Source: Streptomyces sp. CGMCC 4.7035 (lineage in GTDB: Bacteria > Actinomycetota > Actinomycetes > Streptomycetales > Streptomycetaceae). From it: a DNA stretch of 64,000 nucleotides. The number at the start of each line of letters is the position of its first letter. The first letter of the stretch is position 1. The notes under the pieces were generated by a model, which had not been told where the DNA came from, did no database searches, and saw nothing but the letters and a program-made list of their open reading frames with translations. The translations under genes were made by a program, and so were the position numbers. Where the stretch lies: positions 3,720,001-3,784,000 of the forward strand of contig NZ_CP134053.1 in assembly GCF_031583065.1 (NCBI RefSeq), read 5' to 3'. Shown one piece after another: positions 48,398 to 64,000 of the stretch.

Positions 48398-48489
48398 GTC
48401 GCCGTCGCGCGCTCACCAGGGGTCGGCCAAGGTGCGGCGTGGCTTGCCGTCGCGGGCCTCCCACCCCTCCAGCGCCGCGAGGATCCACC

Positions 48490-48740: not shown

Positions 48741-48769
48741 TCGGCACGGACGGGTGCGATGGCGTGAGG

Positions 48770-49534
48770 TCAGTCCGCCGGGCGCGTCAGGTTGGCGACG
48801 AACTTGTAGCGGGAACCGCGGTACACCGAGCGGACCCATTCCACGGGCTTGCCCTCGGCGTCTCGTGAGTGGCGGGACAGCAGCAGCATCGGCAGGCCCA
48901 CGTCGGTACCGAGGAGCCCGGCCTCCCGTGGATTCGCCAGGGATGTCTCGATGGTCTCGTCGGCCTCCGCCAGATGTACGCCGTACACCTCGGCGAGCGC
49001 CGTGTACAGCGAGGTGTACTCGGTCAGGGACTGCCGCAGCTCGGGGAAGCGCTGTGCGGACAGGTGCGTCGTCTCGATCGCCATGGGCTCGCCGCCGGCC
49101 AGCCGCAGCCGCTCGATGCGCAACACGCGTTCGTCGACATCCGTGTCGAGCAGGACGGACAGCTTCTCGCCCGCCGTGATGTAGCCGATGTCGAGCACCT
49201 GCGAGGCGGGCTCGAGACCCTGGGCCCGCATGTCCTCGGTGTGGGAGGTCAGATGGAGGGTCCGGTACACCTTCGGCAACGCGACGAACGTGCCCTTCCC
49301 CTGCACGCGGTTCAGCCGGCCCTCGCCCACCAGCTCCTGCACCGCCTTGCGGACCGTGGTGCGCGAGGTGAGGAACTCGACGGCGAGCGAGCGCTCGGGC
49401 GGCATGAGCGAGCCGGGTGTGAGTGCCTCCGCCATCTCGAGTAACTGTTTCTTGATGCGGTAGTACTTGGGCACTCGCGCGGTATGGCCGGGCGCTGCCT
49501 GCTCGTCCTGGGCGCTGCTGACGTCGGTGGTCAT
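48770..49534 (-). CDS. dasR: GntR/HutC-family regulator, DasR type
   Basis: A 254-aa regulator from ATG 49534. The N-terminal GntR winged helix covers about residues 22-90 ([33 protein letters not shown]), followed by a UTRA effector domain with [20 protein letters not shown] and [24 protein letters not shown] segments up to [14 protein letters not shown]. It resembles Streptomyces DasR throughout and has the same length, but differs at many positions, so it may be a paralogue rather than the main DasR. DasR represses amino-sugar genes and is released by GlcN-6-P or GlcNAc-6-P. It diverges from dasABC, and a palindrome upstream suggests autoregulation. Confidence 0.87.
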
Positions 49535-49658
49535 GACCTGCCTTTCCGGCTCCGGTGCCCGATGCGGCCGGCCCGCACCGGGTCGTGGCTCGTTCTGTCG
49601 CACGGCCGAGGTTCGGGCGCCGTGCGCTCGGCGGTCCCGTTATAGCCTCAGACCGTCA

Positions 49659-49674
49659 AATGGTCTAGTCCAAA
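49659..49674. promoter_or_regulatory. dre site upstream of dasR
   Basis: AATGGTCTAGTCCAAA matches the DasR palindrome with one mismatch in the 12-bp core. It lies 125 bp before the dasR start and could mediate autoregulation. Confidence 0.75.
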
Positions 49675-49785
49675 GGTCAATGAGCCCTGGTCCGAGGGGA
49701 GTTCGGCGGAAGAGTGCGCATTGATGACCGGAAGGTCGCCTGGTGTCTTTCTGGTAACGGACGGCATCAGCTTGTCGAACCGGCC

Positions 49786-49812
49786 TTGACACCCCCATAG
49801 GTCTAGGCCAAG
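49786..49812 (+). promoter_or_regulatory. das operon promoter with overlapping dre
   Basis: TTGACA at 49786-49791 is followed after 8 bp by GGTCTAGGCC, the core of a dre site at 49797-49812. With a 17-bp spacer the -10 hexamer would be CAAGCT (49809-49814). The operator thus fills the spacer and overlaps the -10 box, a clear repression layout. Confidence 0.75.
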
Positions 49813-49820
49813 CTCACCGT

Positions 49821-49836
49821 GCTGGTCTACACCATT
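49821..49836. promoter_or_regulatory. Second dre site in the das leader
   Basis: GCTGGTCTACACCATT has the TGGTCTANACCA core with one change. It lies 24 bp downstream of the first site, so two DasR dimers may bind on the same or nearly the same helix face. Confidence 0.7.
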
Positions 49837-49928
49837 AGAGGCCGGGTCCCAGCCCGACGGGCCGTAGCGCCGTACGCAGGTAACCGCCGGGGGCGTGGGG
49901 GGTTTGTGGCATCCCTGAGGAGGGTGGC

Positions 49929-51206
49929 GTGAAGCGCAAGCTGATAGCCGCGATTGGCATCGCAGGCATGATGGTTTCGGTCGCGGCGTGCGGCGGGGAC
50001 GACGGCGACAGCGGCAAGAAGACGGGGGCGGACGGCTTCAAGGGCCAGACCCTGGTGGTCTGGACGATGGACGGTTCCGCGCCGCCCGCTTGGAGCAAGG
50101 ACCTGCAGGCCGCGTTCGAGAAGAAGACCGGCGCAAAGCTGAAGTTCGAGATCCAGAAGTGGGACGGCATTCAGCAGAAGGTCACGACGGCCCTCTCCGA
50201 ATCGAACCCGCCGGATGTCCTTGAGGTCGGCAACACCCAGACCCCGGCCTACGCCGCCACCGGTGGCCTTGCCGACCTGGGCGATCTGAAGAAGGAGATC
50301 GGCGCCGACTGGACGCCGTCCGTCTCCCAGTCCTCCGTCTACGAGGGCAAGCAGTACGCCGCACCCTGGTACTTCGCCAACCGCGTCGTCATCTACAACA
50401 AGAAGATCTGGGCCAAGGCGGGGATCAAGAGCACCCCGAAGACACGGGACGAGTTCTTCAAGGACCTCGACACCATCGGCAAGAAGACCGACGCCGAGCC
50501 GCTCTACATGCCCGGCCAGAACTGGTACTTCTTCGACGGCCTGACCATCGGCCAGGGCGCGGACCTGGTCAAGAAGGAGGGCGACAAGTACGTCTCCAAC
50601 CTCGCCGACCCCAAGGTCGCCCAGGCCATGGAGATCTACAAGAAGTACGCCTCCTACTCCAAGGCCCCCAAGGACAAGGACGAGGCCACCCCGCAGCAGG
50701 CCGAGGTGTTCGCCAAGGGCAAGACCGGCGCCTTCATCGGCATGGGCTGGGAGGCCGGCACCGCCGTCACCGCCAACAAGGCGATCGAGAAGGACCTCGG
50801 CTACTTCACCATCCCCGGTGCGACGGCCGACAAGCCCGAGGGGGTCTTCCTCGGAGGCTCGAACCTGGCCGTGGCCGCGGGCAGCAAGAAGCAGGAGCTG
50901 GCCAAGGAGTTCCTGAAGCTGGCCCTCTCCGACGAGTTCGAGGGCTCCCTGGCGAAGACGAACGGCGTCATCCCGAACAAGCAGTCCCTGGAGACCAACC
51001 TCAAGGGCAACGTCGTGGCCGAGGCCGCAGCCCCGGGGGCCGCGGTGGGTGGCACCACCCCGTTGATCCCCGAGTGGGCCGCGGTGGAGAACACCCCGAA
51101 CCCGATCAAGTCCTACATGACCGCGGTGCTGAACGGTAAGTCCCCCGCGGACGCCGCCAAGCAGGTCGAGGGCGAGATCAACAAGCGCCTGGCGCAGAAG
51201 AACTGA
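49929..51206 (+). CDS. dasA: Chitobiose-type ABC transporter, substrate-binding lipoprotein
   Basis: A 425-aa lipoprotein from GTG 49929 with GGAGGG just upstream. The signal peptide ends in VSVAAC with Cys21 as the lipid-bearing residue. The mature protein is a family 1 extracellular solute-binding protein: VVWTMDGSAPPAWSKDLQAA, WDGIQQKVTTALSESNPPDV, APWYFANRVVIYNKKIW and TPLIPEWAAVENTPNPIKSY. These agree with Streptomyces DasA, which binds (GlcNAc)2 outside the membrane. Position and order match dasR-dasABCD. The transporter needs an ATPase encoded elsewhere, usually MsiK. Confidence 0.92.
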   Translation: MKRKLIAAIGIAGMMVSVAACGGDDGDSGKKTGADGFKGQTLVVWTMDGSAPPAWSKDLQAAFEKKTGAKLKFEIQKWDGIQQKVTTALSESNPPDVLEVGNTQTPAYAATGGLADLGDLKKEIGADWTPSVSQSSVYEGKQYAAPWYFANRVVIYNKKIWAKAGIKSTPKTRDEFFKDLDTIGKKTDAEPLYMPGQNWYFFDGLTIGQGADLVKKEGDKYVSNLADPKVAQAMEIYKKYASYSKAPKDKDEATPQQAEVFAKGKTGAFIGMGWEAGTAVTANKAIEKDLGYFTIPGATADKPEGVFLGGSNLAVAAGSKKQELAKEFLKLALSDEFEGSLAKTNGVIPNKQSLETNLKGNVVAEAAAPGAAVGGTTPLIPEWAAVENTPNPIKSYMTAVLNGKSPADAAKQVEGEINKRLAQKN

Positions 51207-51215
51207 CGAGTCTGA

Positions 51216-51243
51216 GCCGGGGGCGCCGCACTCCGCCCCCGGC
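51216..51243 (+). terminator. Intercistronic hairpin dasA-dasB
   Basis: GCCGGGGGCG at 51216-51225 pairs with 51234-51243 across an 8-nt loop, directly after dasA. Hairpins here commonly stabilise the binding-protein message or attenuate transcription into the permease genes. Confidence 0.7.
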
Positions 51244-51285
51244 ACAGGTGTGTTGATCGTACGGCCACGGAAGAGATGACACGTC

Positions 51286-52284
51286 ATGTCAGTGCAGACC
51301 GAAGGCACGGACACGGCCGGGGAGCCCGTTGTCCACAAGGCCGGGGCACCCTCGCCTCCGCGTGACGAGGCACGCGAGACCAAGACCTCACACGCCCGGC
51401 GTTCCGCCGCCCCCTATCTGCTCCTGCTGCCCGCACTGCTGGCCACCCTGGTCCTGCTCGGCTGGCCCCTGGTGAAGAACGGCATGCTGTCGTTCCAGAA
51501 CCTCAACCCGCGGCAGCTCATCCTGCACCTCACCGAGTGGAACGGGGTCGACAACTACAAGGAAGTTCTGACCGGCTCGGACTTCTGGCACGTCGTCGAG
51601 CGCTCCATCGTCTTCACCGCGGCCAACGTCGTGCTGACCATGGTGTTCGGCACCCTGACCGGCCTCCTGCTGGCCCGTCTGGGCAGGAAGATGCGACTGC
51701 TGCTCATGCTGGGCCTGGTGCTCGCCTGGGCCATGCCCACCGTCGCGGCCACCACCGTCTACCAGTGGCTGTTCGCGCAGCGCTTCGGCGTCGTCAACTG
51801 GGTTCTGGACAAGCTCGGCTGGCACTCCATGGCCGACCACAACTGGCTCGGCACGCAGTTCTCGACCTTCTCCGTGGTCACCCTGTTGATCGTCTGGCAG
51901 TCGATCCCGTTCGTGGCGATCAACCTCTACGCCGCGACCACGACCATCCCGAAGGAGCTGTACGAGGCCGCGTCCCTGGACGGTGCCGGCGCGTGGAAGA
52001 GCTTCACCTCGGTGACGTTCCCGTTCCTCAGGCCGTTCCTGTACGCCACCACGTTCCTCGAGGTCATCTGGATCTTCAAGGCGTTCACACAGATCTTCGC
52101 GATGAACGAGGGCGGACCCGACCGGCTCACCGAGACCCTGCCGATCTACGCCTTCGTCGAGGGCGTGGGCAACCAGCACTTCGGCATGGGTGCCGCCATC
52201 TCCTTCCTGACCATCCTGGTGCTGCTCGTCATCACCTCGTACTACCTGCGCATGGTGCTCAAGCAAGAGGAGGACGAGCTGTGA
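51286..52284 (+). CDS. dasB: ABC sugar permease DasB
   Basis: A 332-aa permease from ATG 51286. Six helices are predicted, beginning with YLLLLPALLATLVLLGWPLV. The MalF-type EAA loop is ELYEAASLDGAGAWKSFTSV followed by TFPFLRPFLYATTFLE, which contacts the ATPase. It forms the channel with DasC and takes sugar from DasA. Its stop overlaps the start of dasC by 4 bp (GTGA). Confidence 0.93.
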   Translation: MSVQTEGTDTAGEPVVHKAGAPSPPRDEARETKTSHARRSAAPYLLLLPALLATLVLLGWPLVKNGMLSFQNLNPRQLILHLTEWNGVDNYKEVLTGSDFWHVVERSIVFTAANVVLTMVFGTLTGLLLARLGRKMRLLLMLGLVLAWAMPTVAATTVYQWLFAQRFGVVNWVLDKLGWHSMADHNWLGTQFSTFSVVTLLIVWQSIPFVAINLYAATTTIPKELYEAASLDGAGAWKSFTSVTFPFLRPFLYATTFLEVIWIFKAFTQIFAMNEGGPDRLTETLPIYAFVEGVGNQHFGMGAAISFLTILVLLVITSYYLRMVLKQEEDEL

Positions 52285-53111
52285 AGCGCTCACTCTTCGG
52301 CCGCTTCTGGCCCAACGCGACCGCCGTCATCCTCTTCGTCGGCTTCGCGTTCCCCGTCTACTGGATGTTCGCCACGGCCTTCAAACCGACGGGCGACATC
52401 ATCGCGGAGAACCCGGTGTGGGTCCCCACGGACATCACCCTCGCGCACTTCGACAAGGCGGTGCACGCGGACCACTTCTGGACCCTGGTCGCGAACTCCG
52501 TCACCGTCACCGTTCTCGCGGTGCTCCTGTCGCTCGTCATCGCGCTCTTCGCGTCGTTCGCTCTCGCCCGGATGCGGTTCGCCGGGCGCCGCGGCTTCAT
52601 CGTGACCTTCATGCTCGCGCAGATGGCCCCCTGGGAGGTCATGGTCATCGCCATCTACATGCTGATGCGCGACAGCGACATGCTCGACAGCCTCGTCCCG
52701 CTCACCGTCTTCTACATGATGATGGTGCTGCCCCTGACCATCCTGACGCTGCGCGGCTACGTGGCCGCCGTGCCCAAGGAGCTGGAAGAGTCCGCGATGG
52801 TCGACGGCTGCACCCGCACCCAGGCCTTCATCAAGGTGATCTTCCCGCTGCTGGCGCCCGGCCTCATGGCCACCTCGCTGTTCGGATTCATCACCGCCTG
52901 GAACGAGTTCCCGCTCGTCCTCATCCTCAACAAGAGCATCGAGAAGCAGACACTGCCGCTTTGGATCTCCCAGTTCCGCACTGCCTTCGGCGACGACTGG
53001 GGCGCGACGATGGCGGCCTCCTCGCTGTTCGCGCTCCCCATCCTGGTCCTCTTTGTCTTCCTGCAGCGCAAGGCCGTCAGCGGCCTGACCGACGGCGCCG
53101 TGAAGGGGTGA
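52281..53111 (+). CDS. dasC: ABC sugar permease DasC
   Basis: A 276-aa MalG-type permease from GTG 52281, coupled to dasB. It has six helices. The EAA loop reads ELEESAMVDGCTRTQAFIKV and IFPLLAPGLMATSLFGFI follows. The C-terminus (AVSGLTDGAVKG) is typical of MalG-type permeases. It pairs with DasB in the cytoplasmic membrane. Confidence 0.93.
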   Translation: MKRSLFGRFWPNATAVILFVGFAFPVYWMFATAFKPTGDIIAENPVWVPTDITLAHFDKAVHADHFWTLVANSVTVTVLAVLLSLVIALFASFALARMRFAGRRGFIVTFMLAQMAPWEVMVIAIYMLMRDSDMLDSLVPLTVFYMMMVLPLTILTLRGYVAAVPKELEESAMVDGCTRTQAFIKVIFPLLAPGLMATSLFGFITAWNEFPLVLILNKSIEKQTLPLWISQFRTAFGDDWGATMAASSLFALPILVLFVFLQRKAVSGLTDGAVKG

Positions 53112-53118
53112 CACACTG

Positions 53119-54609
53119 ATGACGACATTCGTCACGGGCACTGACGCCCTCACCCGCGACGCCCTCGCAGTGCTGCAGCCGGGCTTCGCCGGCACCACCG
53201 CGCCCGACTGGGTGCGCCGCCGCCTCGGTGAAGGCCTCGCCTCGGTCGCCCTGTTCGGCCGCAACGTCGAAGACGCCGCACAGGTCACCGCCCTCACCGC
53301 TCAGTTGCGGGCGGAGCGGGACGACCTCCTGGTGGCCATCGACGAGGAGAGCGGCGACGTCACCCGCATCGAGGTCCGGACGGGCTCCTCGTTCCCCGGC
53401 AACCACGCGCTCGGCGCCGTCGACGACACCGGCCTCACCCGGGGCGTCGCGCGCGAACTGGGCCGCCGCCTCGCCGGGTGCGGCGTCAACTTCGACTGGG
53501 CGCCGTCGGCCGACGTCAACGTCAACCCCGACAACCCGGTCATCGGTGTGCGCTCCTTCGGCGCCGACACCGACCTCGTGGCCCGGCACACCGCCGCCTA
53601 TGTCGAGGGTCTGCAGTCCATGGGCGTCGCCGCGTGCACCAAGCACTTCCCCGGCCACGGCGACACCAGCGTCGACTCGCACCACGCGATACCGCGCATC
53701 GACGTCGACACGGCCACGCTGTACGAGCGCGAACTGCCCCCCTTCCGGGCGGCGATCGCGGCAGGCACCCGGGCACTGATGAGCGCGCACATCCTGGTGC
53801 CGGCCCTCGACCCGGAGCGCCCGGCGACACTCTCGCACCGCATTCTGACCGAGATGGTGCGCGGCGAACTCGGCTACGAGGGTCTGATCGTCACGGACGG
53901 CATGGAGATGCGTGCCATCTCCGGTACGTACGGCCTCGAGCGTGGGGTCGTCCTGGCGATCGCGGCGGGCGCTGACGCGATCTGTGTCGGCGGCGGGCTG
54001 TGCGACGAGGGCACCGTGCTGAGTCTGCGCGACGCGCTCGTCACCGCGGTCCGCTCCGGTGAACTGCCCGAGGAGCGTCTGGCCGATGCCGCCGCCCGGG
54101 TGCGGGACCTGGCGCGGTGGACCGCCGAGGCGGCCCGCGACGCGGAGGCGGCGGGCGCGTCCGACCCGGAGATCGGCCTCGTCGCGGCCCGGCGCGCGGT
54201 CACCGTGACCCGTACGGCGGCCCCGGCGCCGGTCACCGAGCCGGTGTACGTCGCCACGTTCGACCCGGTCGCCAACATCGCCGTCGGAGACGAAACCCCC
54301 TGGGGTGTCGGCGCCGAGCTGGAGCGGCTGCTGCCCGGCACCACGACCGGCTCCTTCACCGGCACCGACGCGGGCAGTACCGCGCTCGCGGCGGCGGGAG
54401 ACCGGCGCATCGTCGCGGTCGTCCGTGACGAGCACCGGCACGAGTGGATGCGGTCCGCCCTCGACATGCTGCTCGCCGCCCGCCCCGACACGATCGTGGT
54501 CGAGATGGGCGTCCCGCAGTCCCCGCCACGCGGCGCCCTGCACCTCGCCACGTACGGCGCGGCCCGGGTCTGCGGCGTGGCCGCGGCGGAGAGGATCGTG
54601 GCCGGCTGA
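53119..54609 (+). CDS. dasD: GH3 beta-N-acetylglucosaminidase (DasD type)
   Basis: A 496-aa cytoplasmic glycosidase from ATG 53119, 7 bp after dasC. It has the GH3 NagZ-like barrel with the dyad motif CTKHFPGHGDTSVDSHHAIP, in which the His assists catalysis, and the nucleophile in GLIVTDGMEMRAISGTYGLE. The second domain covers about residues 350-496. There is no signal peptide. It should split imported (GlcNAc)2 to GlcNAc inside the cell. Gene order dasA-B-C-D matches S. coelicolor. Confidence 0.92.
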   Translation: MTTFVTGTDALTRDALAVLQPGFAGTTAPDWVRRRLGEGLASVALFGRNVEDAAQVTALTAQLRAERDDLLVAIDEESGDVTRIEVRTGSSFPGNHALGAVDDTGLTRGVARELGRRLAGCGVNFDWAPSADVNVNPDNPVIGVRSFGADTDLVARHTAAYVEGLQSMGVAACTKHFPGHGDTSVDSHHAIPRIDVDTATLYERELPPFRAAIAAGTRALMSAHILVPALDPERPATLSHRILTEMVRGELGYEGLIVTDGMEMRAISGTYGLERGVVLAIAAGADAICVGGGLCDEGTVLSLRDALVTAVRSGELPEERLADAAARVRDLARWTAEAARDAEAAGASDPEIGLVAARRAVTVTRTAAPAPVTEPVYVATFDPVANIAVGDETPWGVGAELERLLPGTTTGSFTGTDAGSTALAAAGDRRIVAVVRDEHRHEWMRSALDMLLAARPDTIVVEMGVPQSPPRGALHLATYGAARVCGVAAAERIVAG

Positions 54610-54676
54610 CACCGCGTCGTGTCAGCGGCTCGGTGCGGTTCGGCGGGGCGGGGGACGGACTCTCCCCCCCGGCATG

Positions 54677-54708
54677 GGGATGTCCCGGGCGGTGTCCCGG
54701 GACATCCC
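54677..54708 (+). terminator. 13-bp perfect hairpin ending the das operon
   Basis: GGGATGTCCCGGG at 54677-54689 pairs perfectly with 54696-54708 across a 6-nt loop, 70 bp after the dasD stop. The next gene has its own dre-controlled promoter. Confidence 0.8.
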
Positions 54709-54819
54709 GCCGACCCGTGCACACAGGCCGCATCGCCCGTGCCGACGTCCCTGCCCGTCCGGGCTGGGGAAGCTGAAGAATCGCTGACCGCACAGCCGAT
54801 CGCCGGGGAAAGCGGTTTC

Positions 54820-54848
54820 TTGACAGCCCGATTGGTCTGGTCCAACAT
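54820..54848 (+). promoter_or_regulatory. Promoter with overlapping dre before second GH3 gene
   Basis: TTGACA at 54820-54825, then 8 bp, then GGTCTGGTCC, the core of a dre-like site at 54831-54846. A 17-bp spacer puts CAACAT (54843-54848) at the -10 position. The arrangement matches the das operon promoter exactly. Confidence 0.75.
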
Positions 54849-54926
54849 CCGCCTGCTGTGTCATGTCGTCGCCGGGGTCTTCCGATCCATCGGCTCCGCA
54901 CTCCACTTCCCTCGGAGGTCCCCTCC

Positions 54927-56441
54927 ATGTCAGAGAGCAGCCACCTGGAACTCATGCGGCTGGCCAACTCCGTGCTCCAGCCGGGGTTCGTGGGTACCAC
55001 TGCGCCGGACTGGCTGCGTCGTCGGATCTCCGAAGGGCTCGGCTCCGTTGTCCTGTTCGGGCGCAACATCGAGAGCCCGGAACAGGTCGCCGCGCTCACC
55101 GCGTCCCTGCGCGCCGAGAACCCCGACCTCGTCGTCGCCATCGACGAGGAGGCCGGTGACGTCACCCGCCTCGAAGCGCGCACCGGGGCCTCCCGTCCAG
55201 GAAACCTCGCCCTGGGCGTCATCGACGACATCGACCTCACCGAGCAGGTCGCCCACGACATCGGCCGCGAACTGCGCTCCGTCGGCGTCACGTTGAACTA
55301 CGCGCCCAGCGCCGACGTCAACTCCAACCCCAGGAACCCCGTCATCGGCGTGCGCTCCTTCGGCGCGCGCACCGATGTCGTCGCCCGCCACACCGCCGCC
55401 TGGATCCGCGGCCTCCAGGCCGCCGGTGTGGCCGCCTGCGCCAAGCACTTCCCCGGCCATGGCGACACCTATGTCGATTCCCACCATGGACTGCCGCAGG
55501 TTTCGGCCGACGCCGACACGATCGCACGCACGGCGCTGCCGCCGTTCATCGCAGCCATGGACGCGGGCGTGCGCAGCGTCATGACCGCCCACATGCTCAT
55601 CCCTGCCTACGACGACCGGATGCCGGCGACCCTCAGCCACCGGATCATCAACGACCTGCTGCGCGGCGAGCTGGGCTTCACCGGTCTTGTCGTCACCGAC
55701 GCCATCGAGATGGGCGCCGTCGCCGACCGGTACGGTGCCGCCGGCGCGGCCGTCAGGGCCGTGGCCGCCGGAGTCGACGCGGTGTGCGTCGGCGGCGAGC
55801 ACGCCGAGGAGTCCATCACCGTCGAACTGGCCGACGCCCTCGTGCGGGCCGTGCTCGACGGCACCTTGCCGGAGGAGCGGCTTGTCGAAGCTGCGACCCG
55901 CGTGGCGGAGTTCGCCTCTTGGGCCGCCGGGCTGCGGAAGGGAGCGACCCCCGGTTCCGACGCCTCCGACATCGGTCTGGTGGCGGCCCGCCGCGCAGTG
56001 CGCGTCCACCGCAAGCCCGACGCCGGCACCGAGTTCCCGCTGGTCGGCGATCCGCACGTGGTCGAGCTGTCTCCGACGACGAACCTCGCGATCGACAACA
56101 GCACCCCCTGGGGCGTGGCCGACCCGTTGAAGGTCCTGCGCCCAGGCACGACATCCGTACGGTTCGGTGAGTCCGAACTGGCCGACGTGGAGGACACGTT
56201 GGACCGTGTGGCGCTGGAGTCGGCCGCCGGGCGCGCACTGGTCGTCGTCGTCCGGGACGCGGCGCGCTACCGCTGGATGTCGCAGGCCCTGGCGGGCCTG
56301 GTGCGCCGCCGCCCCGATGCCCTGGTCGTGGAGATGGGCGTGCCCTCGGGGGACCGTCCCGGAGCCGTCCACCTGACCACGCACGGGGCGACGCGCGTGT
56401 CGGGCATCGCCGCGGCCGAGGTGTTGGTCGGGGCTGTCTGA
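54927..56441 (+). CDS. Second GH3 beta-N-acetylhexosaminidase
   Basis: A 504-aa paralogue of the preceding enzyme from ATG 54927 with CGGAGGT upstream. The dyad motif is CAKHFPGHGDTYVDSHHGLP and the nucleophile motif is GLVVTDAIEMGAVADRYGA. N- and C-terminal domains align with DasD over the full length. There is no signal peptide. Both enzymes being cytoplasmic suggests different substrate preferences, such as chitobiose versus muropeptide-derived or modified oligosaccharides, an inference. It has its own promoter and dre site. Confidence 0.92.
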   Translation: MSESSHLELMRLANSVLQPGFVGTTAPDWLRRRISEGLGSVVLFGRNIESPEQVAALTASLRAENPDLVVAIDEEAGDVTRLEARTGASRPGNLALGVIDDIDLTEQVAHDIGRELRSVGVTLNYAPSADVNSNPRNPVIGVRSFGARTDVVARHTAAWIRGLQAAGVAACAKHFPGHGDTYVDSHHGLPQVSADADTIARTALPPFIAAMDAGVRSVMTAHMLIPAYDDRMPATLSHRIINDLLRGELGFTGLVVTDAIEMGAVADRYGAAGAAVRAVAAGVDAVCVGGEHAEESITVELADALVRAVLDGTLPEERLVEAATRVAEFASWAAGLRKGATPGSDASDIGLVAARRAVRVHRKPDAGTEFPLVGDPHVVELSPTTNLAIDNSTPWGVADPLKVLRPGTTSVRFGESELADVEDTLDRVALESAAGRALVVVVRDAARYRWMSQALAGLVRRRPDALVVEMGVPSGDRPGAVHLTTHGATRVSGIAAAEVLVGAV

Positions 56442-56530
56442 CGGGCATCGGCCGCCCGACGACCGTCTGACGAAGACTCAAATCCTCAACGGCAGCGACG
56501 GCTTGAGGGCGAAGCGGATCACCGCGAGGG

Positions 56531-56564
56531 TTGACATCTCAAGTGGTCTACTCCAATGTATAGG
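56531..56564 (+). promoter_or_regulatory. Promoter with overlapping dre before the biosynthetic operon
   Basis: TTGACA at 56531-56536, then 8 bp, then GGTCTACTCC, the core of dre site AAGTGGTCTACTCCAA at 56541-56556. A 17-bp spacer gives CAATGT as -10; TATAGG at 56559-56564 is an alternative. It lies 173-206 bp before the first gene, leaving a long untranslated leader. Confidence 0.75.
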
Positions 56565-56736
56565 AACGTCAGTTCGATGATTAACCCCGTCTGTCCGGAG
56601 CGCACATGGTGTTCCGGCGACGGTGCCGCCGTCTGTGCCGGCCGCGGTGCGGCTTGCTTCGTACGCGAAGGGCCGCGGGAGCGGTCCACGTGCTCGGCCA
56701 CTCGGCCACAGAAAAGATCAAGTTCGGAGTGATTGC

Positions 56737-57768
56737 ATGTCGACCCCCGACCCCTACCTGTACCGAGCGGCATCGGACCGCCCCTATTTCAGTGCGGACG
56801 GGGAGACCTACCTCGCGCAGACGCCGCTGAGGGACGTCCGGAAGTTACGGCCGCTGCGGGTGCTGTCCGAGGAGGACTTCGCCTTCTGGCAGACCTACGG
56901 TTACGTGGTGGTCAAGGAGGCGATCTCCCCGGCCGCGGCCAAGAGTCTGCTGGAGTTCACCTGGGACTTCCAGGGACTCGACCCGGACCGCCCCGAAACC
57001 TGGTACGCCCCGCGGGAGTTCCGCTCCGACCTGGATCGTGACCTGCATGTCTACGGCTTCGTGGAGGCGTACCACCACCAGCTCATCTGGGACAGCCGCC
57101 AGACCCGGCGGGTCTACGACGCCTTCGCCGACGTGTGGGACTGTGAAGAGCTCTGGGTGACCCTGGACCGGCTCAATCTCAACCCGCCCAACGTCAAGAA
57201 CCGCTCCCGCTCCTTGATCGAACCCACCGAGCGGGGCTTCGACATCGACCTGCACTGGGACGTGGACACCACCCTCGGCGTGCTGCCCCAGCGGGTCCAG
57301 GGCATCATCGCGCTCAACGACACCCAGCCCGACCTGGGCGGATTCCAGTGTTCGCCGGAGCTGTTCCGGCGGTTCGAGGAGTGGAAGATCGCCCAGCCCG
57401 CGGACCGCGACCCGATCAGGCCCGCGATCGACCGCTCCGAGTTCCCCGTCGTCCGGCCCGAACTCCAGGCCGGTGACCTGCTGATCTTCAACGGCCTGCT
57501 GGCTCACGGCGTGGCACCCAACACCTCCGCGGGCGGTGTCCGCGTGGTCCAGTACCTCTCGATGATGCCCGCGCTGGAGGAGCACGAGGACCTGCGGTGC
57601 TCCCGCATCGACTCCTGGGCCACCCTGAGCACGCCGGACTGGAACGGGACGCTGCTCGGCGACCGAACCAGACACGAGTCCCTCAGGTACGGCCCCGCCA
57701 CGCTGAACAACCTCGGCAAGAAGCTGCTGGGACTCGAGTCCTGGAGCGGACAAGAGCCCGCACGGTGA
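56737..57768 (+). CDS. PhyH-family Fe(II)/2-oxoglutarate dioxygenase
   Basis: A 343-aa non-haem iron oxygenase from ATG 56737 with GGAG upstream. The jelly-roll core has the iron triad His173-x-Asp175 (DLHWDVDTTLGVLPQRVQGI) and His257 (LLIFNGLLAHGVAPNTSAGG), with Arg269 placed to bind 2-oxoglutarate. IIALNDTQPDLGGFQCSPEL is the usual PhyH loop. It should hydroxylate or otherwise oxidise a small molecule using O2, as in many actinobacterial natural-product pathways. It is the first gene of a coupled operon; the next gene starts a few bases after its stop. Confidence 0.9.
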   Translation: MSTPDPYLYRAASDRPYFSADGETYLAQTPLRDVRKLRPLRVLSEEDFAFWQTYGYVVVKEAISPAAAKSLLEFTWDFQGLDPDRPETWYAPREFRSDLDRDLHVYGFVEAYHHQLIWDSRQTRRVYDAFADVWDCEELWVTLDRLNLNPPNVKNRSRSLIEPTERGFDIDLHWDVDTTLGVLPQRVQGIIALNDTQPDLGGFQCSPELFRRFEEWKIAQPADRDPIRPAIDRSEFPVVRPELQAGDLLIFNGLLAHGVAPNTSAGGVRVVQYLSMMPALEEHEDLRCSRIDSWATLSTPDWNGTLLGDRTRHESLRYGPATLNNLGKKLLGLESWSGQEPAR

Positions 57769-57782
57769 ACCGGAGAACCGGC

Positions 57783-59096
57783 ATGCCCAGGATCTGTCTG
57801 ACCCTTCCCACGAACAGAGAGTGCTCCGCGACGATTTCCGCCATCGGCGAGGAGGCGGCCTACGCGGCCCGCCACTTCGATGTCGAGGTGCACCTGCTGA
57901 TCCTCGACTCCTCCGACGAGCGGACCCGCGCCGCACACGCCGGGGCCGTCGCCGGACTGCCACCGACGCCGAACGTGACGGTCCACCACCTCGACGAGGC
58001 GCTCCAGCGCGACTTCCTGCGACGCGTGATCGACCGGGCCGGCGTCGCCAAACCGGACCTGATGCTCGACCTCATGCTGCCGTCCGACGTCTCCTACGGA
58101 GCCTGCACCAACCGCGCCTTCCTGATCGCCGCGGCGCTCGGCTGCCGGTCGGTGCACCGCAGGGACTCGGACAGCACCTACCAGTTCGTGGACGGCGAAC
58201 CGGTCTTCCCCGTCCACCATGAACTCACGTCGCTGGGCAGACGGGCCGCCGACGCGTCGGCCGCCGTGACCGAGACGGACCTCGACCCCGCCTACGCCCA
58301 CCGCCCGGTGTCGATGGTGGGCAGCTCCTTCATCGGCGAACTGTCTGTCGACATCGGCGAGATCCGACGGCTCGACGAGGACGTCTACCACGACGTCGTC
58401 GGTCTGTGGGCGCCCGGCCACTGGTCCGAGGAGCGGAAGCGGGAGCTGGTCGAGGAGTCCTTCACGGGGGCCGGCCACGCCCCGTTCACCAGGGACCGCT
58501 CGACGCTCACCCTGGTCGACCCCATGCGGGTCGACATGTGCAACATCAGCTTCCACCAGGAGGTGTACGAGCGGGTGCCGCTGCCGCCCGCGACCAGCAC
58601 CATCGGCAGCGACTACTTCCTCATCCACCTCGTCCACGACGCCACGCTTCCCGGCGTCCTGCACAACCGCAACATCGAGAACTTCTACACCCCGGAACGA
58701 CGCACCGACGCCGGGTTCGTGGCCTACCAGACGCGGTTCGTGAAGTTCCTCCTGTCCATGCTCTACTTCAACTTCGTCTACGACAGGATGGGCGCGGCGG
58801 GCGCCTCGCTCCTCGACGACCGGCAGCGCGTGCGCGCCGCCACCCTCGTCGCGTTCCTGCGTGAGAGCACCGAGCTGGACCGCACCGAGAACGTGCTCCG
58901 GCTGGACAGCGTCGATGGTTCCTACCGCAAGCTCGGTGGCAGGTACGCGCAGTTCGCCGACCTGCTCGCCGCGCGCCGCGGGCGATTGCTCGACGAGGCC
59001 CGGCAGGACATTGAGGACTTCGCGCTGCTGATCGAGGCCTGGGATCCGCTGGTGCGCGCGAGCCGGGACACCGAACTCGGGAGAACAGGCCCGTGA
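57783..59096 (+). CDS. DUF6271 family protein
   Basis: A 437-aa protein from ATG 57783, with GGAGAA five bases upstream; GTG 57765 overlapping the previous stop is an alternative. The N-terminal 200 residues look like a nucleotide-sugar glycosyltransferase-type alpha/beta fold (MPRICLTLPTNRECSATISA, FDVEVHLLILDSSDERTRAA, DLMLDLMLPSDVSYGACTNR). The middle has VGSSFIGELSVDIGEIRRLD and MRVDMCNISFHQEVYERVPL. DUF6271 is found in actinobacterial gene clusters and its activity is undetermined. It may modify or transfer onto the product of the operon. It overlaps the downstream decarboxylase gene by 4 bp. Confidence 0.75.
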   Translation: MPRICLTLPTNRECSATISAIGEEAAYAARHFDVEVHLLILDSSDERTRAAHAGAVAGLPPTPNVTVHHLDEALQRDFLRRVIDRAGVAKPDLMLDLMLPSDVSYGACTNRAFLIAAALGCRSVHRRDSDSTYQFVDGEPVFPVHHELTSLGRRAADASAAVTETDLDPAYAHRPVSMVGSSFIGELSVDIGEIRRLDEDVYHDVVGLWAPGHWSEERKRELVEESFTGAGHAPFTRDRSTLTLVDPMRVDMCNISFHQEVYERVPLPPATSTIGSDYFLIHLVHDATLPGVLHNRNIENFYTPERRTDAGFVAYQTRFVKFLLSMLYFNFVYDRMGAAGASLLDDRQRVRAATLVAFLRESTELDRTENVLRLDSVDGSYRKLGGRYAQFADLLAARRGRLLDEARQDIEDFALLIEAWDPLVRASRDTELGRTGP

Positions 59097-60346
59097 ACAG
59101 GCACGTGAGCAGGCCCGCGCACAGCAACCCGAACGCGCGGCTGCACGCCGCACTGACGGCCGCGTCGCAGGACCGCATCGTCTTCGACCTCACCGGGATC
59201 GAAGCCCAATACGCGGCACTGTGCAGGGAGTTACCCGACATCGCCGTGCGCTTCGCCATGAAGGCGTGCCCCGTCGACGACGTGCTGGCGTCTCTCGCGC
59301 ACCAGGGCGCCGGCTTCGATGCGGCGGGCCCGGAGGAAATCCTTCAGGCACTGAGGACCGGCGTGCCCGTGGACCGGATCCACTACGGCAACACCATCAA
59401 GTCCGACGCGAACATCGCCGAGGCCTACCGGCTCGGCGTCCGGGACTTCGCGACCGACAGCGTCCAGGACGTGGAGGCGATCGCCGCGCATGCCCCCGGT
59501 TCACGGGTGTTCTGCCGACTCGCCACCAGCGGACACGGGGCACTTTGGGGGCTGAGCCGGAAGTTCGGGTGCTCGGGGGACGACGCCGTGGATGTGCTGG
59601 ACGCGGCCCGCGCGGCGGGCCTGACCCCGGCGGGCCTCTCGGTCCACGTCGGCTCGCAGCAGATGACCGCCGAGGCCTGGCGGCAGGCCGTCGACACACT
59701 GGCCGAGGTGCTCGTGGCGCTGCACGGACGGGGGATCGTGCCCGAGTACGTCAACCTCGGCGGCGGCCTGCCGGCACTGGGCTACCTCGACCGATGGGGC
59801 AGGAGGCTCGAACCCCCGCTGGACAAGATCTTCGCGGTGATCCGCGAGGGCATGCAGCAGCTGAGGGACCTCTCCCCGACCCCCCTGGACTTCCTCATGG
59901 AGCCGGGGCGCCACCTGGTCGCCGACCACGGCGCGATCCGGGCGCACGTGTCCCGGCTGACCACGCGACGGCAGCCGGACGGTGAGCGCGCGTACTGGCT
60001 GTACTTGAGCTGCGGGAAGTTCAACGGCCTCTACGAGACGGACCAGTTGCAGTACCGGCTCGTCTTTCCCACCCACACCGAAGGGGACGGCCGGGGGGAC
60101 ACGGAGTACGTGCCCGCCGTCGTCGCGGGCCCCACCTGCGACAGCGACGACGCCTACGCCCACGAGGGCCGGCGTGTGCTCGTGCCCAGGGCCGCCGCGT
60201 CCGGCGACCCGGTCTGGATCCTGTCCGCCGGCGCGTACTCCACCAGCTACCAGACACAGGGGTTCAACGGCTTCCGTCCGCTTCCGTACGCGTGTACCAG
60301 CGGCGCCCGCTACGGCCTGGAAGCGGCCACGGAAGGGCCGGTGTAG
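59093..60346 (+). CDS. Type III PLP-dependent amino acid decarboxylase
   Basis: A 417-aa fold-type III PLP enzyme from GTG 59093, overlapping the previous stop (GTGA). The PLP lysine is Lys57 in IAVRFAMKACPVDDVLASL. Other landmarks are FDAAGPEEILQALRTG, HYGNTIKSDANIAEAYRLGV, LSVHVGSQQMTAEAWR, FLMEPGRHLVADHGAI and the active-site Cys in VAGPTCDSDDAYAHE. This is the ornithine/diaminopimelate/arginine decarboxylase family; secondary-metabolite members such as BtrK decarboxylate carrier-bound or modified amino acids. The substrate here is not predictable. It supplies an amine to the pathway. Confidence 0.9.
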   Translation: MNRHVSRPAHSNPNARLHAALTAASQDRIVFDLTGIEAQYAALCRELPDIAVRFAMKACPVDDVLASLAHQGAGFDAAGPEEILQALRTGVPVDRIHYGNTIKSDANIAEAYRLGVRDFATDSVQDVEAIAAHAPGSRVFCRLATSGHGALWGLSRKFGCSGDDAVDVLDAARAAGLTPAGLSVHVGSQQMTAEAWRQAVDTLAEVLVALHGRGIVPEYVNLGGGLPALGYLDRWGRRLEPPLDKIFAVIREGMQQLRDLSPTPLDFLMEPGRHLVADHGAIRAHVSRLTTRRQPDGERAYWLYLSCGKFNGLYETDQLQYRLVFPTHTEGDGRGDTEYVPAVVAGPTCDSDDAYAHEGRRVLVPRAAASGDPVWILSAGAYSTSYQTQGFNGFRPLPYACTSGARYGLEAATEGPV

Positions 60347-60859
60347 ATGCACCACGACGTACGCATCCGGAACATCTCCGACGCCGACTGGCCGGGCGTA
60401 GCGGCCCTGGAGGCCGGCGTGTACACGGACAGTTCGCTGTCGGAGGGGCAGACCGCACTGGAGTCCAGGGGCCGTGCGTCCCCGACCACCTGCTTCGTCC
60501 TGGAGTTCGGCGACAGGATCGCGGGCTACGTGCTCGCACTGCCCTACCCGATGTTCCGCTTCCCGGATCTGACCCGGCCGGAAGTGGTCGTCTTCCAATC
60601 GCGCAATCTCCACCTGCACGACCTGGTCATCGCCGAGAGCCTGCGCGGCAGGGGACTGGGGAGACGACTTCTGCGCCATCTCACGTCCACGGCCAGGGCG
60701 GCGGAGTACGAGCGGATGTCCCTGATCGCGGTCGGAGGAATGGAGACCTTCTGGGCGGCGAACGGATACCGGGCTCATCGCGAGGTCCGACTCCCGCTGA
60801 GCTACGGCAGCACCGCGGTCTACATGTCCACCACGGTGCGGACAGGCCCGAACCAATGA
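60347..60859 (+). CDS. GNAT-family N-acetyltransferase
   Basis: A 170-aa acetyltransferase from ATG 60347, immediately after the stop of the decarboxylase. The acetyl-CoA motif A is DLVIAESLRGRGLGRRLLRH, preceded by ITFRF-like AGYVLALPYPMFRFPDLTRP. N-acetylation of the amine made by the upstream decarboxylase is plausible, either as a biosynthetic step or as self-protection. The stop overlaps the MFS gene by 4 bp. Confidence 0.87.
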   Translation: MHHDVRIRNISDADWPGVAALEAGVYTDSSLSEGQTALESRGRASPTTCFVLEFGDRIAGYVLALPYPMFRFPDLTRPEVVVFQSRNLHLHDLVIAESLRGRGLGRRLLRHLTSTARAAEYERMSLIAVGGMETFWAANGYRAHREVRLPLSYGSTAVYMSTTVRTGPNQ

Positions 60860-60876
60860 TGCCGAAGGAGGGGCTG

Positions 60877-62124
60877 ATGCCGGTGCTCGGCGTCCGCGAC
60901 GATTTCCGCCGCGCGCAGTTGGCCATCGCCGCGCTGTTCTGTTTTCTGGGATTCCAGTACGCCACCTGGGCCGCTCGGCTGCCCACGCTGAAGACACGAC
61001 TCGGCCTGAGCGCGGAGGAGCTGGGCCTGCTGCTGATGGTCTGCGGCGCGGGCGCGGCGGCCTCCTTCCCCCTTGTCGCACACCTGATGAAGCGGCTGGG
61101 CTCCGGGCGGCTGGCGTTCGTCTCGGCCCTGAGCCTGGCAGCCCTCCTGCCGGCGCTGTCCGTGGCGCCGAACTACCCGGTCGCGTTGTTGATCATCTGC
61201 TGTGACGGCGTCGCCGTGGGGTGTCTGAACGTCGCCATGAACGCGCAGGGTGCCGCACTGGAGGCCAAGTACCGGCGCACCGCCATGGCTCAGCTGCACG
61301 CGACGTTCAGCGGCGGCTCGTTGGGCGCGGCACTCCTGGCGTCCGGCATGAACGGCCTGACCTCGGCCCTCACGGCGCACTTCGCGGTGGCCGCCGTACT
61401 CCTGTTGCTGCTGCTCTGTGTTGCCCGGCCGCACCTGCTGCCCGACGAGCAGCACGGGGCCGCGCAGGACGACGGCCAGGACAGCGAGGGGACGACGGAT
61501 CAAAGGGAGAGCGAGAAGGCGCGGCCGAGTCAGAAGGCGGGCCGTCGCGGGCTGACGCTGCCGTCGCGGATGACGCTGTGGATGGGCTGCGCCATGGCGT
61601 TCGGCACCGTCACCGAGGGGGCCATGAACGACTGGTCGGCGCTCTACATGAAGGACGTCGTCAAGGCGTCGGCCCAGCTGGCGCCGATGGGTATCGCCGT
61701 CGTCTCGGTCATGATGGTGCTGGCGCGCGTCTTCGCCGACGGCTGGCGCAGCCGCTGGGGCGACGCCCGTGTCGTCCGGCTCGGCAGCGCCCTCGCGGGC
61801 ACCGGGCTGGCCCTCGCCCTGCCGGCCGGTGGCCTGGTGCCCACACTGATCGGGTTCGCCTGCGTCGGCCTGGGAGTCGCGGCGGTCACTCCGTGCGTGT
61901 ACGTGGCCGCCGCCGCGAAGGGCTCGGACGCCCTGGCCCTGGTCGCCGCGATGGGAACCACGGGGCTGTTGGCCGGCCCGGCGTTGATCGGCTTCATCGC
62001 CGGCGCCGGCGGCCTGGTGTGGGGGATGGCGGCCGTCGCGGGCTCGGCTCTGATCGTGTCCCTGTGCGCCACGCAGATCCGCTGGAAGGCCCTCGCCGGT
62101 GAACCCGTGGAGGCAGTGAACTGA
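60877..62124 (+). CDS. MFS transporter, probable exporter of the operon product
   Basis: A 415-aa major facilitator from ATG 60877, chosen because AGGAGG lies five bases before it; ATG 60856, which overlaps the previous stop, is the coupled alternative. It has about 12 helices with a charged loop (QHGAAQDDGQDSEGTTDQRE) between halves. Helix 1 contains FCFLGFQYATWAARLPTLKT, as in YbjJ-like MFS members. It is the last gene of the operon and probably exports the product. Confidence 0.9.
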   Translation: MPVLGVRDDFRRAQLAIAALFCFLGFQYATWAARLPTLKTRLGLSAEELGLLLMVCGAGAAASFPLVAHLMKRLGSGRLAFVSALSLAALLPALSVAPNYPVALLIICCDGVAVGCLNVAMNAQGAALEAKYRRTAMAQLHATFSGGSLGAALLASGMNGLTSALTAHFAVAAVLLLLLLCVARPHLLPDEQHGAAQDDGQDSEGTTDQRESEKARPSQKAGRRGLTLPSRMTLWMGCAMAFGTVTEGAMNDWSALYMKDVVKASAQLAPMGIAVVSVMMVLARVFADGWRSRWGDARVVRLGSALAGTGLALALPAGGLVPTLIGFACVGLGVAAVTPCVYVAAAAKGSDALALVAAMGTTGLLAGPALIGFIAGAGGLVWGMAAVAGSALIVSLCATQIRWKALAGEPVEAVN

Positions 62125-62172
62125 GCACGGTCTGCGGCCTTCCGGGGCATGCGGCCCGGGGAGCCCGGGCCG

Positions 62173-62290
62173 TGCCGCGGAGACGGGCGCGGGGCGGTGC
62201 CGCGGAGACGGGCGCGGGGCGGTGCCGCGGAGACGGGCGCGGGGCGGTGCCGCGGAGACGGGCGCGGGGCGGTGCCGCGGAGACGGGCGC
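62173..62290. repeat. 25-bp tandem repeat, four full units and a partial fifth
   Basis: TGCCGCGGAGACGGGCGCGG plus GGCGG is repeated exactly at 62173, 62198, 62223 and 62248. A fifth copy at 62273 diverges after 18 bases. The array lies between the MFS gene and the lactonase gene. Each unit can form a GC-rich hairpin. Confidence 0.95.
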
Positions 62291-62538
62291 CGGCGCCGGG
62301 GATCGATCCCGCGGTCGCGCTCGTCCTGCCGGCCACCCCGCAGACGGTCACCGACCAGTGGGTGCACCGGGCCACGTGGCCGCGCATGGCAGCGCGCGGG
62401 CGACCCGCGGGCGGACCTCGCGTCCTGTACGGCGGAGCTCACAGCACTTCTGGGGCGCGTAGGGTCGGCGGTCGCGCCGTCGGCGCATCCAGGCGGGCGC
62501 GGGATCTCGCCACCGGCGGATGCGCGACGAGATGGCCT

Positions 62539-62554
62539 TTTGGTCTAGACCTGC
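62539..62554. promoter_or_regulatory. dre-like site before the lactonase gene
   Basis: TTTGGTCTAGACCTGC carries the perfect 10-bp centre GGTCTAGACC, with one mismatch in the outer core. It lies 43 bp before the start at 62597. No TTGACA is placed as at the other three promoters. Confidence 0.65.
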
Positions 62555-62596
62555 TGCTACCGTCGCCCCGTGAGGCGTCGGCGAGAGGGGACGGCA

Positions 62597-63625
62597 ATGG
62601 CGGACGGCGGCGGGCGGCGACGGCGGGCGTACATCGGCTCGTTCACGGCGGCGGGAGGGCGCGGCGTCCTCACGGCGGCCGTGGACCCGGACAGCGGCGC
62701 GCTGACCGTCCTGAACGCCGTGGACGGGGTGCCCGACCCGTCCTACCTGGCGCTCTGCGGGGACATGCTCTACGCGGTCAGCGAGACCGCCGACGGCGCC
62801 GTCGCCGCGTACCGCGTCGATGGTGACAAGCCCGAGCTCACCGGTCCGCCCGTCCCTGTGGGCGGCAGCGGGCCCACGCACCTGTGCCTGCACGCCGGTC
62901 ACGTCCTGACCGCCAACTACGGCTCCGGCAGCGTCACCGCCGTCCCGCTGCGCGGCGACGGCACCTTGGCGAAGGCGGCGTCCGCCGTGCTTCAGCACCA
63001 GGGCTCGGGGCCGGTCCCGCAACGGCAGCAGGGACCGCACGCCCATCAGGTGCAGCCCGACCCGAGCGGCCGCTGGATCGTCGGCGTCGACCTCGGCACG
63101 GATTCCGTCCGTGTGTGCGTGCTGAAGGGCGGCGCGCTGACCCCGCACCGCGAGACCGCGCTGCGTCCCGGGTCCGGGCCGCGTCATCTGGCCTTCCATC
63201 CGGACGGGGGCCGCGCGTACGTCCTCAACGAGCTGACGCCGACCGTCACCGTCTGCCGCTGGGACGCCGAGGACGGTGTCCTGAAGCCCGTCGCCGAGAC
63301 ACCGGTGCTGCACGACGTGCCCGCCGGTGACGCCTACCCGTCGGGCATCGTCGTGTCGCCCGACGGACGCTTCGTGTGGACCGCGACACGCGGGCAGGAC
63401 GTGTTGTCCGTGCTCGCCGTCGAGGGCGACGGACTCAGGCGGGTGGCGACGGTGCCGTGCGGGGGCGTCTGGCCGCGCGCGATCGCCCTGTCGGAGGGGT
63501 TCCTGTACGTCGCCAACGAGCGGTCCGGGGACGTGACCTGGTTCGCGCCGGACCCGGAGACGGGGGTACCGCGGCGAGGCGGCTCGGTGGATGCGCCGGC
63601 GGCTTCCTGCGTCGTCCTCGGCTGA
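62597..63625 (+). CDS. Lactonase (6-phosphogluconolactonase-type beta-propeller)
   Basis: A 342-aa seven-bladed propeller from ATG 62597 with GAGAGGGG six bases before it. The family signature includes YIGSFTAAGGRGVLTAAVDP, PSYLALCGDMLYAVSE, GPHAHQVQPDPSGRWIVGVD, PGSGPRHLAFHPDGGRAYVL and DAYPSGIVVSPDGRFVWTAT. It resembles YbhE/Pgl lactonases, which hydrolyse 6-phosphogluconolactone or other lactones in the cytoplasm. The dre-like site suggests regulation with amino sugars. Confidence 0.9.
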   Translation: MADGGGRRRRAYIGSFTAAGGRGVLTAAVDPDSGALTVLNAVDGVPDPSYLALCGDMLYAVSETADGAVAAYRVDGDKPELTGPPVPVGGSGPTHLCLHAGHVLTANYGSGSVTAVPLRGDGTLAKAASAVLQHQGSGPVPQRQQGPHAHQVQPDPSGRWIVGVDLGTDSVRVCVLKGGALTPHRETALRPGSGPRHLAFHPDGGRAYVLNELTPTVTVCRWDAEDGVLKPVAETPVLHDVPAGDAYPSGIVVSPDGRFVWTATRGQDVLSVLAVEGDGLRRVATVPCGGVWPRAIALSEGFLYVANERSGDVTWFAPDPETGVPRRGGSVDAPAASCVVLG

Positions 63626-63741
63626 TCCAGACGGATTCCGCGTCCGGCCTGGTACACCGGCTACACCGGCCTGGTACGGGCTCCGGGGGCCGTCCCCTGG
63701 CGGGCGGGCGGCGGGACCGGTTCGCGCGACCGGCAAGGCGA

Positions 63742-63771
63742 AGGCCCCGCTTCCATGGGGGAGCGGGCCCT
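63742..63771. terminator. Hairpin 1 of a duplicated pair
   Basis: AGGCCCCGCTTCC at 63742-63754 pairs with 63759-63771 with one mismatch and one wobble, loop of 4. The surrounding GGCAAGGCGAAGG...GGGCCCTGGG recurs at 63875-63915. Confidence 0.65.
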
Positions 63772-63883
63772 GGGGCATGGCTGGCGGGGGCTCCGGGTCG
63801 TCTGCCGGCGGGCGGGTGCCGGGGTCGGCTTGCGACCGGCTTCTCGATGCCGTGGAGAACCGTTGGCTTGTCAGGCAAGGCGA

Positions 63884-63913
63884 AGGGCCCGCTCCATGGG
63901 TGGAGCGGGCCCT
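63884..63913. terminator. Hairpin 2 of a duplicated pair
   Basis: AGGGCCCGCTCC at 63884-63895 pairs perfectly with 63902-63913, loop of 6. It lies just after the end of the gene that enters from the right edge and probably terminates it and the lactonase transcript. Confidence 0.75.
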
Positions 63914-63941
63914 GGGTCGTACAGGGTGATCCGGGTGGGGC

Positions 63942-64000
63942 TCAGCGGACCGGCGCGCCCTGCGGCTGCTGCGGTGAGATGCCCAGTGCCGTCGTGTACT
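63942..64000 (-). CDS. C-terminal end of a gene running in from the right edge
   Basis: The minus strand encodes YTTALGISPQQPQGAPVR and a stop at 63942, 28 bp before hairpin 2. Only 19 codons are inside the window, so the product is unknown. Confidence 0.5.
   Translation of the reverse strand, partial: YTTALGISPQQPQGAPVR

Follow-up and report, generated by a model that had tools for sequence, protein, structure and literature searches.

In Streptomyces coelicolor, DasD acts on chitobiose as an N-acetyl-beta-D-glucosaminidase (PMC6167110), and the DasR consensus site, dre, reads A(G/C)TGGTCTAGACCA(G/C)T (PMC4398421). The mutase MtdL is reported to use Arg159 (PMC9937993). Here, we analyzed a 64,000-nucleotide stretch of Streptomyces sp. 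CGMCC 4.7035 (contig NZ_CP134053.1, positions 3,720,001 to 3,784,000; hereafter the window), in which genes resembling the das locus lie next to a five-gene operon (56737-62124) that, judging from its sequence, probably makes and exports a small molecule. On balance, and with a confidence only somewhat above even, we favor the reading that this operon represents a widespread Streptomycetaceae specialised-metabolite cassette, which would be induced by chitin or N-acetylglucosamine (GlcNAc) through a DasR-type repressor and would follow the chemistry proposed below.

Operon layout and two cassette types

All five genes lie on the + strand and encode, in order, a PhyH-type Fe(II)/2-oxoglutarate (2OG) dioxygenase (56737-57768; PF05721, 5.4e-11), a DUF6271 protein predicted to be a GT-A sugar-transfer enzyme (57783-59096; PF19787, 5.8e-242), a fold-III pyridoxal phosphate (PLP) decarboxylase (59093-60346; PF02784, 1.4e-40) whose nearest PDB match is the lysine/ornithine decarboxylase 2plj (7.7e-39), a GNAT N-acyltransferase (60347-60859; PF00583, 4.3e-12), and a major facilitator superfamily (MFS) exporter (60856-62124; PF07690, 1.4e-22). 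Gene starts and gaps were taken from a simple codon-model gene caller built for this analysis, and the resulting spacing ranges from -4 to +14 bp: the DUF6271 and decarboxylase genes overlap by 4 bp, as do the GNAT and MFS genes, the decarboxylase and GNAT genes are separated by 0 bp, and an alternative GTG start at 57765 would also give the DUF6271 gene a 4-bp overlap with PhyH. Open reading frame and family scans confirm the gene set and tight spacing on which an initial annotation of the window based its coupled operon. No match was obtained in terminator and sigma-70 scans of 54500-62700, which are uninformative as shuffled sequences would yield only 1.7 and 0.2 matches, or in an Rfam scan of 48000-64000. 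Directly 3' of the MFS gene, a GC-rich unit of 25 bp is repeated five times in tandem (62167-62290), the copies matching at 98%.

The PF19787 domain was detected in 22/100 relatives (own genome counted) and in 5/396 genomes drawn across the phylum, all five from the same genus and including the window's own. Among 60 other sampled same-genus genomes, 20 carry DUF6271, one of them as a distant homologue only. Neighborhoods were read for 105 loci, i.e., the window, 4 plasmid loci (23 plasmid records matched), 20 from genomes, and 80 from genome contigs; the latter are the best 80 of 328, hence lean towards close relatives and are all type A (see below). Four duplicates (L056, L070, L102, and L110) were removed for the dre and GH3 counts, the DUF6271 tree, and the type A counts, leaving 101 distinct loci, and were kept in the GH3, decarboxylase, and PhyH rows, the gap counts, and the site consensus. 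Loci L140-L148 stand outside all counts.

The 101 distinct loci comprise 93 type A cassettes, organized as in the window, and 8 type B cassettes. The conserved neighborhood sought by the initial annotation is indeed found in other genomes, with the full gene order present in 92/93 type A loci (in L123, the MFS gene is called on the opposite strand) across many different genomic contexts. The PhyH-DUF6271 gap has a median of -4 and is at most 60 bp in 104/104 pairs (duplicates included), and the decarboxylase and GNAT are fused into a single protein in 7/93 type A loci. Separately, one type A cassette (G162; L148 10435-10764) has a decarboxylase called at only 109 aa, which may be truncated, while its other genes look whole.

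In type B, genes for a phosphopantetheinyl transferase (PPTase), an acyl carrier protein (ACP), and a ligase resembling aminoacyl-tRNA synthetases (aaRS) diverge from a PhyH-DUF6271-condensation domain-MFS series. The ligase of L054 matches the amino acid:[carrier protein] ligase 3mey (1.3e-21) and the condensation domain match reaches 1.9e-21; ACP- and PPTase-like genes adjoin the ligase in 8/8 type B loci, both falling below the Pfam cut-off in L054. In L044, DUF6271 and the condensation domain form one protein, and L049 lacks an MFS gene call. Type B forms a single clade in the DUF6271 tree (FastTree, local support only). After the type B cassette of Streptomyces clavuligerus come two genes annotated as transketolase, of 223 and 301 aa (L031 17001-18644). 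The reported lack of a polyketide synthase (PKS) or nonribosomal peptide synthetase (NRPS) core holds for the window's version of the cassette; its type B sister does use an NRPS-type condensation domain. Type A may pass under cluster finders because it is small and lacks such a core.

The product could instead be a stored or catabolic compound, such as a compatible solute or a diamine N-acetylated for detoxification. However, the operon is closed by an MFS gene in 92/93 type A loci, and the carrier-protein peptide chemistry of type B is typical of specialised metabolites, so that we consider this explanation rather improbable compared to a secreted signal or antibiotic.

Dre-like sites and linked chitin-sugar genes

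Upstream of PhyH, a dre-like putative operator, AGTGGTCTACTCCAAT (56542-56557), matches 13/16 bases of AGTGGTCTAGACCACT, one form of the DasR consensus (PMC4398421). The other form, ACTGGTCTAGACCACT, was used for genome-wide counts and yielded, with at most 3 mismatches, 18 + 16 strand matches in the window's own genome vs. 9 + 4 in a reversed control, while a looser cassette-type pattern yielded 54 + 50 vs. 41 + 34. With these counts, the lone site at 56542 is weak and was dropped as sufficient evidence. The DasR-type link made by the initial annotation is nevertheless convincing when loci are compared: a site of at least 12/16 lies between PhyH and its upstream neighbor in 61/101 distinct loci (53/93 type A and 8/8 type B), vs. 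10/436 other intergenic regions of at least 100 bp from the same loci (mean 323 bp vs. 450 bp for the PhyH-upstream intervals; Fisher 2e-42, not a true probability because the loci share ancestry). Similarly, 12/16 is reached in the 400-bp upstream stretches of 42/97 type A and 8/8 type B loci, and in 0/97 and 1/8 of reversed controls (duplicates included). Many type A loci without their own site sit codirectionally behind a GH3 gene or das operon preceded by one, and 80/93 have one when sites within 6 kb upstream are counted. Cassette sites are frequently TGGTCTAGTCCA, and position 11 is T in 41/63 (duplicates included).

Two other dre-like sequences were noted in the window. One, TTTGGTCTAGACCTGC (62539-62554, 11/16), lies just 5' of a seven-bladed lactonase-family gene (62597-63625) which may be a DasR-type target, and the other, CATGGTCTAGTCCACT, lies towards the opposite end of the window (7628-7643) with at most 3 mismatches to the dre consensus.

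Immediately upstream of the operon, a second beta-N-acetylglucosaminidase homologue of family GH3 (54927-56441, + strand; PF00933, 1.4e-72) has no signal peptide discernible by eye and is preceded by a weaker dre-like site, ATTGGTCTGGTCCAAC (54831-54846, 11/16). A GH3 gene occurs in 68/93 type A loci, a GH3 or DasR homologue in 73/93, and neither in the eight type B loci. In the GH3 tree, two clades with support 100/100 separate 38 DasD-type from 36 cassette-type rows, the latter including all 27 divergent copies and 9 codirectional ones, among them the window's. Cassette-type GH3 was found in 9/61 same-genus genomes, beside the cassette in 7/13 type A genomes and alone in 2/48 others (Fisher 1e-4), using a cut-off of at least 64% identity that was chosen after the list was inspected and excludes partial matches at 60-63%. 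KHFPGHG and DSH motifs (Asp-His dyad) are kept in 36/36 cassette-type rows, and the TD nucleophile pattern was found in 28/36, including the window's copy. By these sequence criteria, a dedicated GH3 belongs to the cassette, a component missed by the initial annotation. The two solo copies (L143 8589-10058 and L144 8692-10188, in G044 and G060), in genomes without DUF6271, are possible remnants of lost cassettes.

A dedicated hydrolase could also point to self-resistance, with a product that inhibits beta-N-acetylglucosaminidases (or chitinases) and is exported by the MFS protein, and a cassette GH3 that serves as a resistant spare of the target DasD. Such a role would fit a separate GH3 clade whose member adjoins a DasD-type gene in the window, retains its catalytic motifs, and accompanies the cassette into different contexts, and it would also fit the many type A loci without cassette GH3 that adjoin a DasD-type gene. 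Conversely, G044 and G060 keep such a GH3 without a cassette, and both GH3 and DasR are missing from view in 20/93 type A loci; overall, we regard this resistance scenario as quite unlikely.

The genes preceding the cassette GH3 resemble a das locus. They encode a DasR paralogue, DasR2, of the GntR/HutC type (48770-49534, - strand; 77% identical to the DasR at G000:C1:1496770-1497522), followed on the + strand by a DasA-like chitobiose-binding protein (49929-51206), DasB-like and DasC-like ABC permeases (51286-52284 and 52281-53111), and a DasD-like GH3 (53119-54609; PF00933, 2.6e-68) that groups with cassette-linked DasD. The dasA-like gene is a gene call with homologues ordered alike at canonical das loci of other genomes; the names DasA, DasB, and DasC follow S. 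coelicolor. Two dre-like sites lie between dasR2 and dasA: AATGGTCTAGTCCAAA (49659-49674, 12/16) and GCTGGTCTACACCATT (49821-49836, 12/16 to AGTGG... and 13/16 to ACTGG...).

These genes are not the canonical das locus. The window's own genome holds two close DasR, of which the canonical-type copy at 1.497 Mb adjoins a NagB-like gene and has no dasABCD beside it. DasR was searched in 35 genomes chosen among the 61 of the same genus; for 19 of the 35, the canonical dasR locus was read as well. Two DasR (E 1e-60) were detected in 8/35 genomes, the second adjoining the cassette in 6. In a tree of 61 DasR (FastTree, local support; excluding a 37%-identical DasR-like protein of L094), a canonical clade of 20 holds a single cassette-linked sequence (L120), and the other 39/40 fall outside it. 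The window's DasR branches next to this clade (local support 83) and outside it, so that the nagB-adjacent copy, and not DasR2, is of the canonical type. The DasD tree likewise places 29/30 cassette-linked sequences and two cassette-free ones (G003 and G027) apart from 13 canonical sequences and L120. A DasC tree was set aside as unreliable because the gene caller seems to have picked wrong frames in several loci, and only the DasR and DasD trees were used.

Across the 19 canonical dasR loci, dasABCD is missing in 6 and kept in 13/13 others, and the 6 genomes without it are exactly those owning a second das operon (4 with the cassette, 2 without). The latter two (L197 in G027 and L199 in G003) have a second das locus, no cassette, and no dasABCD at the canonical dasR locus. 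On this sequence evidence, the window das genes look like a second, cassette-linked copy standing in for the canonical operon. A broader scenario, which we put forward tentatively as possible, is an autonomous unit that turns incoming chitin sugars into an outgoing metabolite. In it, DasR2, a chitobiose importer, GlcNAc-releasing hydrolases, and the operon would have travelled together, any dasABCD brought along would have replaced the host uptake operon, and DUF6271, as a hitherto unassigned GT-A family, plus a 2OG oxygenase would form the common core of two chemically different exported products made from imported chitin sugars.

Alternatively, the GH3/das neighborhood may be a landing site or a convenience of shared regulation, with biosynthesis tied to chitin sugars by timing only. 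Type B would fit this idea, since all 8 of its loci have a dre-like site although no GH3 or das gene is seen in them. However, the cassette adjoins two GH3 clades as well as both the second and (in L120) the canonical das locus, dedicated GH3 copies follow it to unrelated contexts, and the DUF6271 tree (FastTree, local support only) implies several context changes (6 for das context, 6 for divergent GH3, and 4 for codirectional GH3). We therefore judge a link through timing alone unlikely.

Predicted enzymes and proposed pathway

The DUF6271 protein is predicted to adopt a GT-A fold, whose nearest fold, with matching overall topology, is the mutase MtdL, as expected for a GT75-type enzyme. DUF6271 might be a nucleoside diphosphate-sugar pyranose/furanose mutase of the MtdL/UAM (GT75) kind, giving an unusual furanosyl donor. 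In contrast to MtdL and its Arg159, no arginine within residues 131-295 is kept in at least 98/101 cassette proteins, as judged from sequence. Comparison with four bacterial RGP-family proteins revealed no profile similarity (hhalign probability 1.1%), and none of the other operon genes encodes a glycosyltransferase that could use a furanosyl donor. A plain GT75 mutase was therefore dropped for want of a conserved catalytic arginine after the DxD and of profile similarity, and we consider the mutase function very unlikely; lacking this arginine, the predicted GT-A enzyme is more likely a glycosyltransferase. Four weak matches of the DUF6271 profile to PDB sequences (best E 0.036) look like chance. 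Beyond the cassettes, a distant homologue (G037; L135 9432-10796) is solitary, beside an ABC transporter, and gave no functional hint; further relatives bear the names Paenibacillus and Clostridium, and a scan of viral contigs with a Paenibacillus DUF6271 found no relative.

Both flanking enzymes have invariant catalytic residues. The PhyH HxD...H metal triad and 2OG arginine (H173, D175, H257, and R269) are kept in 104/104 rows, and the decarboxylase residues K57, H185, E270, C349, and D350 in 90/90 rows (the four duplicates included). Decarboxylase position 307, which aligns with an Asp of 2plj beside a 3-residue gap, is C in 66, V in 13, A in 7, S in 2, and T in 2 of the 90 rows and never Asp. 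The corresponding side-chain-binding Asp in ornithine decarboxylase is D332. An acidic residue that would bind a free distal amine is hence absent in 90/90 rows, which makes a free basic amino acid doubtful as substrate on the basis of the alignment.

Taken together, these features suggest a pathway in which PhyH would hydroxylate a small amino-acid-like substrate, DUF6271 would attach a sugar to the hydroxylated substrate, the decarboxylase would strip its carboxylate, GNAT would acylate the resulting amine, and the MFS protein would export the acylated product. The added sugar is possibly GlcNAc, because the GH3 and das linkage recurs. The GH3 is probably cytoplasmic and would either release GlcNAc from chitobiose for the pathway or deglycosylate product that is still intracellular. 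For type B, we propose that the condensation domain, fed by the carrier protein, would aminoacylate the product shared by PhyH and DUF6271. We infer an amine that is oxidised, glycosylated, decarboxylated, and N-acylated, and our best guess for the type A product is an N-acylated amine, probably glycosylated, which is exported and whose synthesis would accompany the uptake of chitin sugars.

Support for the proposed chitin-induced cassette comes from the invariant catalytic residues, fixed gene order, tight gaps, fusions, type B parts, dre sites, GH3 clade, DUF6271 fold, DasR2 and DasD clades, and absence of dasABCD at the canonical locus in 6/6 genomes with a second das operon. Several observations weigh against it. 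At 12/16, 40/101 loci have no site of their own, and the 6 kb upstream are free of sites in 13/93 type A loci. A single DasR is found in 7/13 type A genomes searched, which means that the cassette does not always come with a second das locus. No GH3 or DasR is in view in 20/93 type A loci (3 of which end at a contig edge) or in 8/8 type B loci; these are the strongest facts against a GlcNAc-containing product, which the data thus do not require. The PhyH structure prediction (pLDDT 34, shallow alignment) was not used, and the sequence of reactions is a guess based on fusions and gene order.

Comparison with described systems

Open-access papers yielded no described pathway with the cassette gene set, in line with the view of the initial annotation that the combination is not a recognised pathway, nor did the literature on GlcNAcase-inhibitor clusters, carrier-protein ligases with condensation domains, DasR and cryptic clusters, or a second DasR. 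Passages of PMC12161575 name neither PhyH nor a DUF, and apparent "DasR2" matches in PMC11076491 are citation superscripts rather than a second DasR. Overall, the operon, dre link, and conservation of the initial annotation stood and its amino-acid-derived metabolite is a conjecture, while it overlooked the cassette GH3, the GT-A likeness of DUF6271, type B, and the second das locus. DUF6271 occurs in a third of sampled same-genus genomes, yet is named in no open-access paper found. The GlcNAc link offers a concrete means of switching the cassette on, and the core chemistry common to types A and B can readily be compared between them. If the exchange of the chitobiose uptake operon is confirmed, a biosynthetic cluster would, unusually, have taken control of a system for nutrient uptake.

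With the MtdL/Hyg20/plant UAM mutases of GT75 (PMC9937993), DUF6271 shares GT-A topology, a DxD, and a C-terminal H-x-R, but it lacks their conserved catalytic arginine, profile similarity, and a partner glycosyltransferase in the operon. The cassette decarboxylase shares the PLP lysine and the HVGSQ, EPGR, and GPTCD motifs with fold type III lysine/ornithine decarboxylases (2plj and 5gjm) and differs from them at the side-chain-binding Asp position. Homologues of amino acid:[carrier protein] ligases (3mey and 4h2s) lie beside the ACP, PPTase, and condensation domain genes in type B, whereas the window's type A cassette has none. Mycothiol-type pathways combine a glycosyltransferase, an aaRS-like ligase, and a GNAT enzyme, and the likeness to these is one of logic only (sugar transfer, aminoacylation, and N-acetylation). 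Finally, the S. coelicolor DasR regulon and das locus share with the window a GntR/HutC regulator, a chitobiose ABC importer, the GH3 DasD, dre-like sites, and the same arrangement. Unlike S. coelicolor dre, many cassette sites carry the TGGTCTAGTCCA variant, and unlike S. coelicolor das, the window das genes belong to a second lineage, which has a DasR of its own and is linked to a biosynthetic operon.

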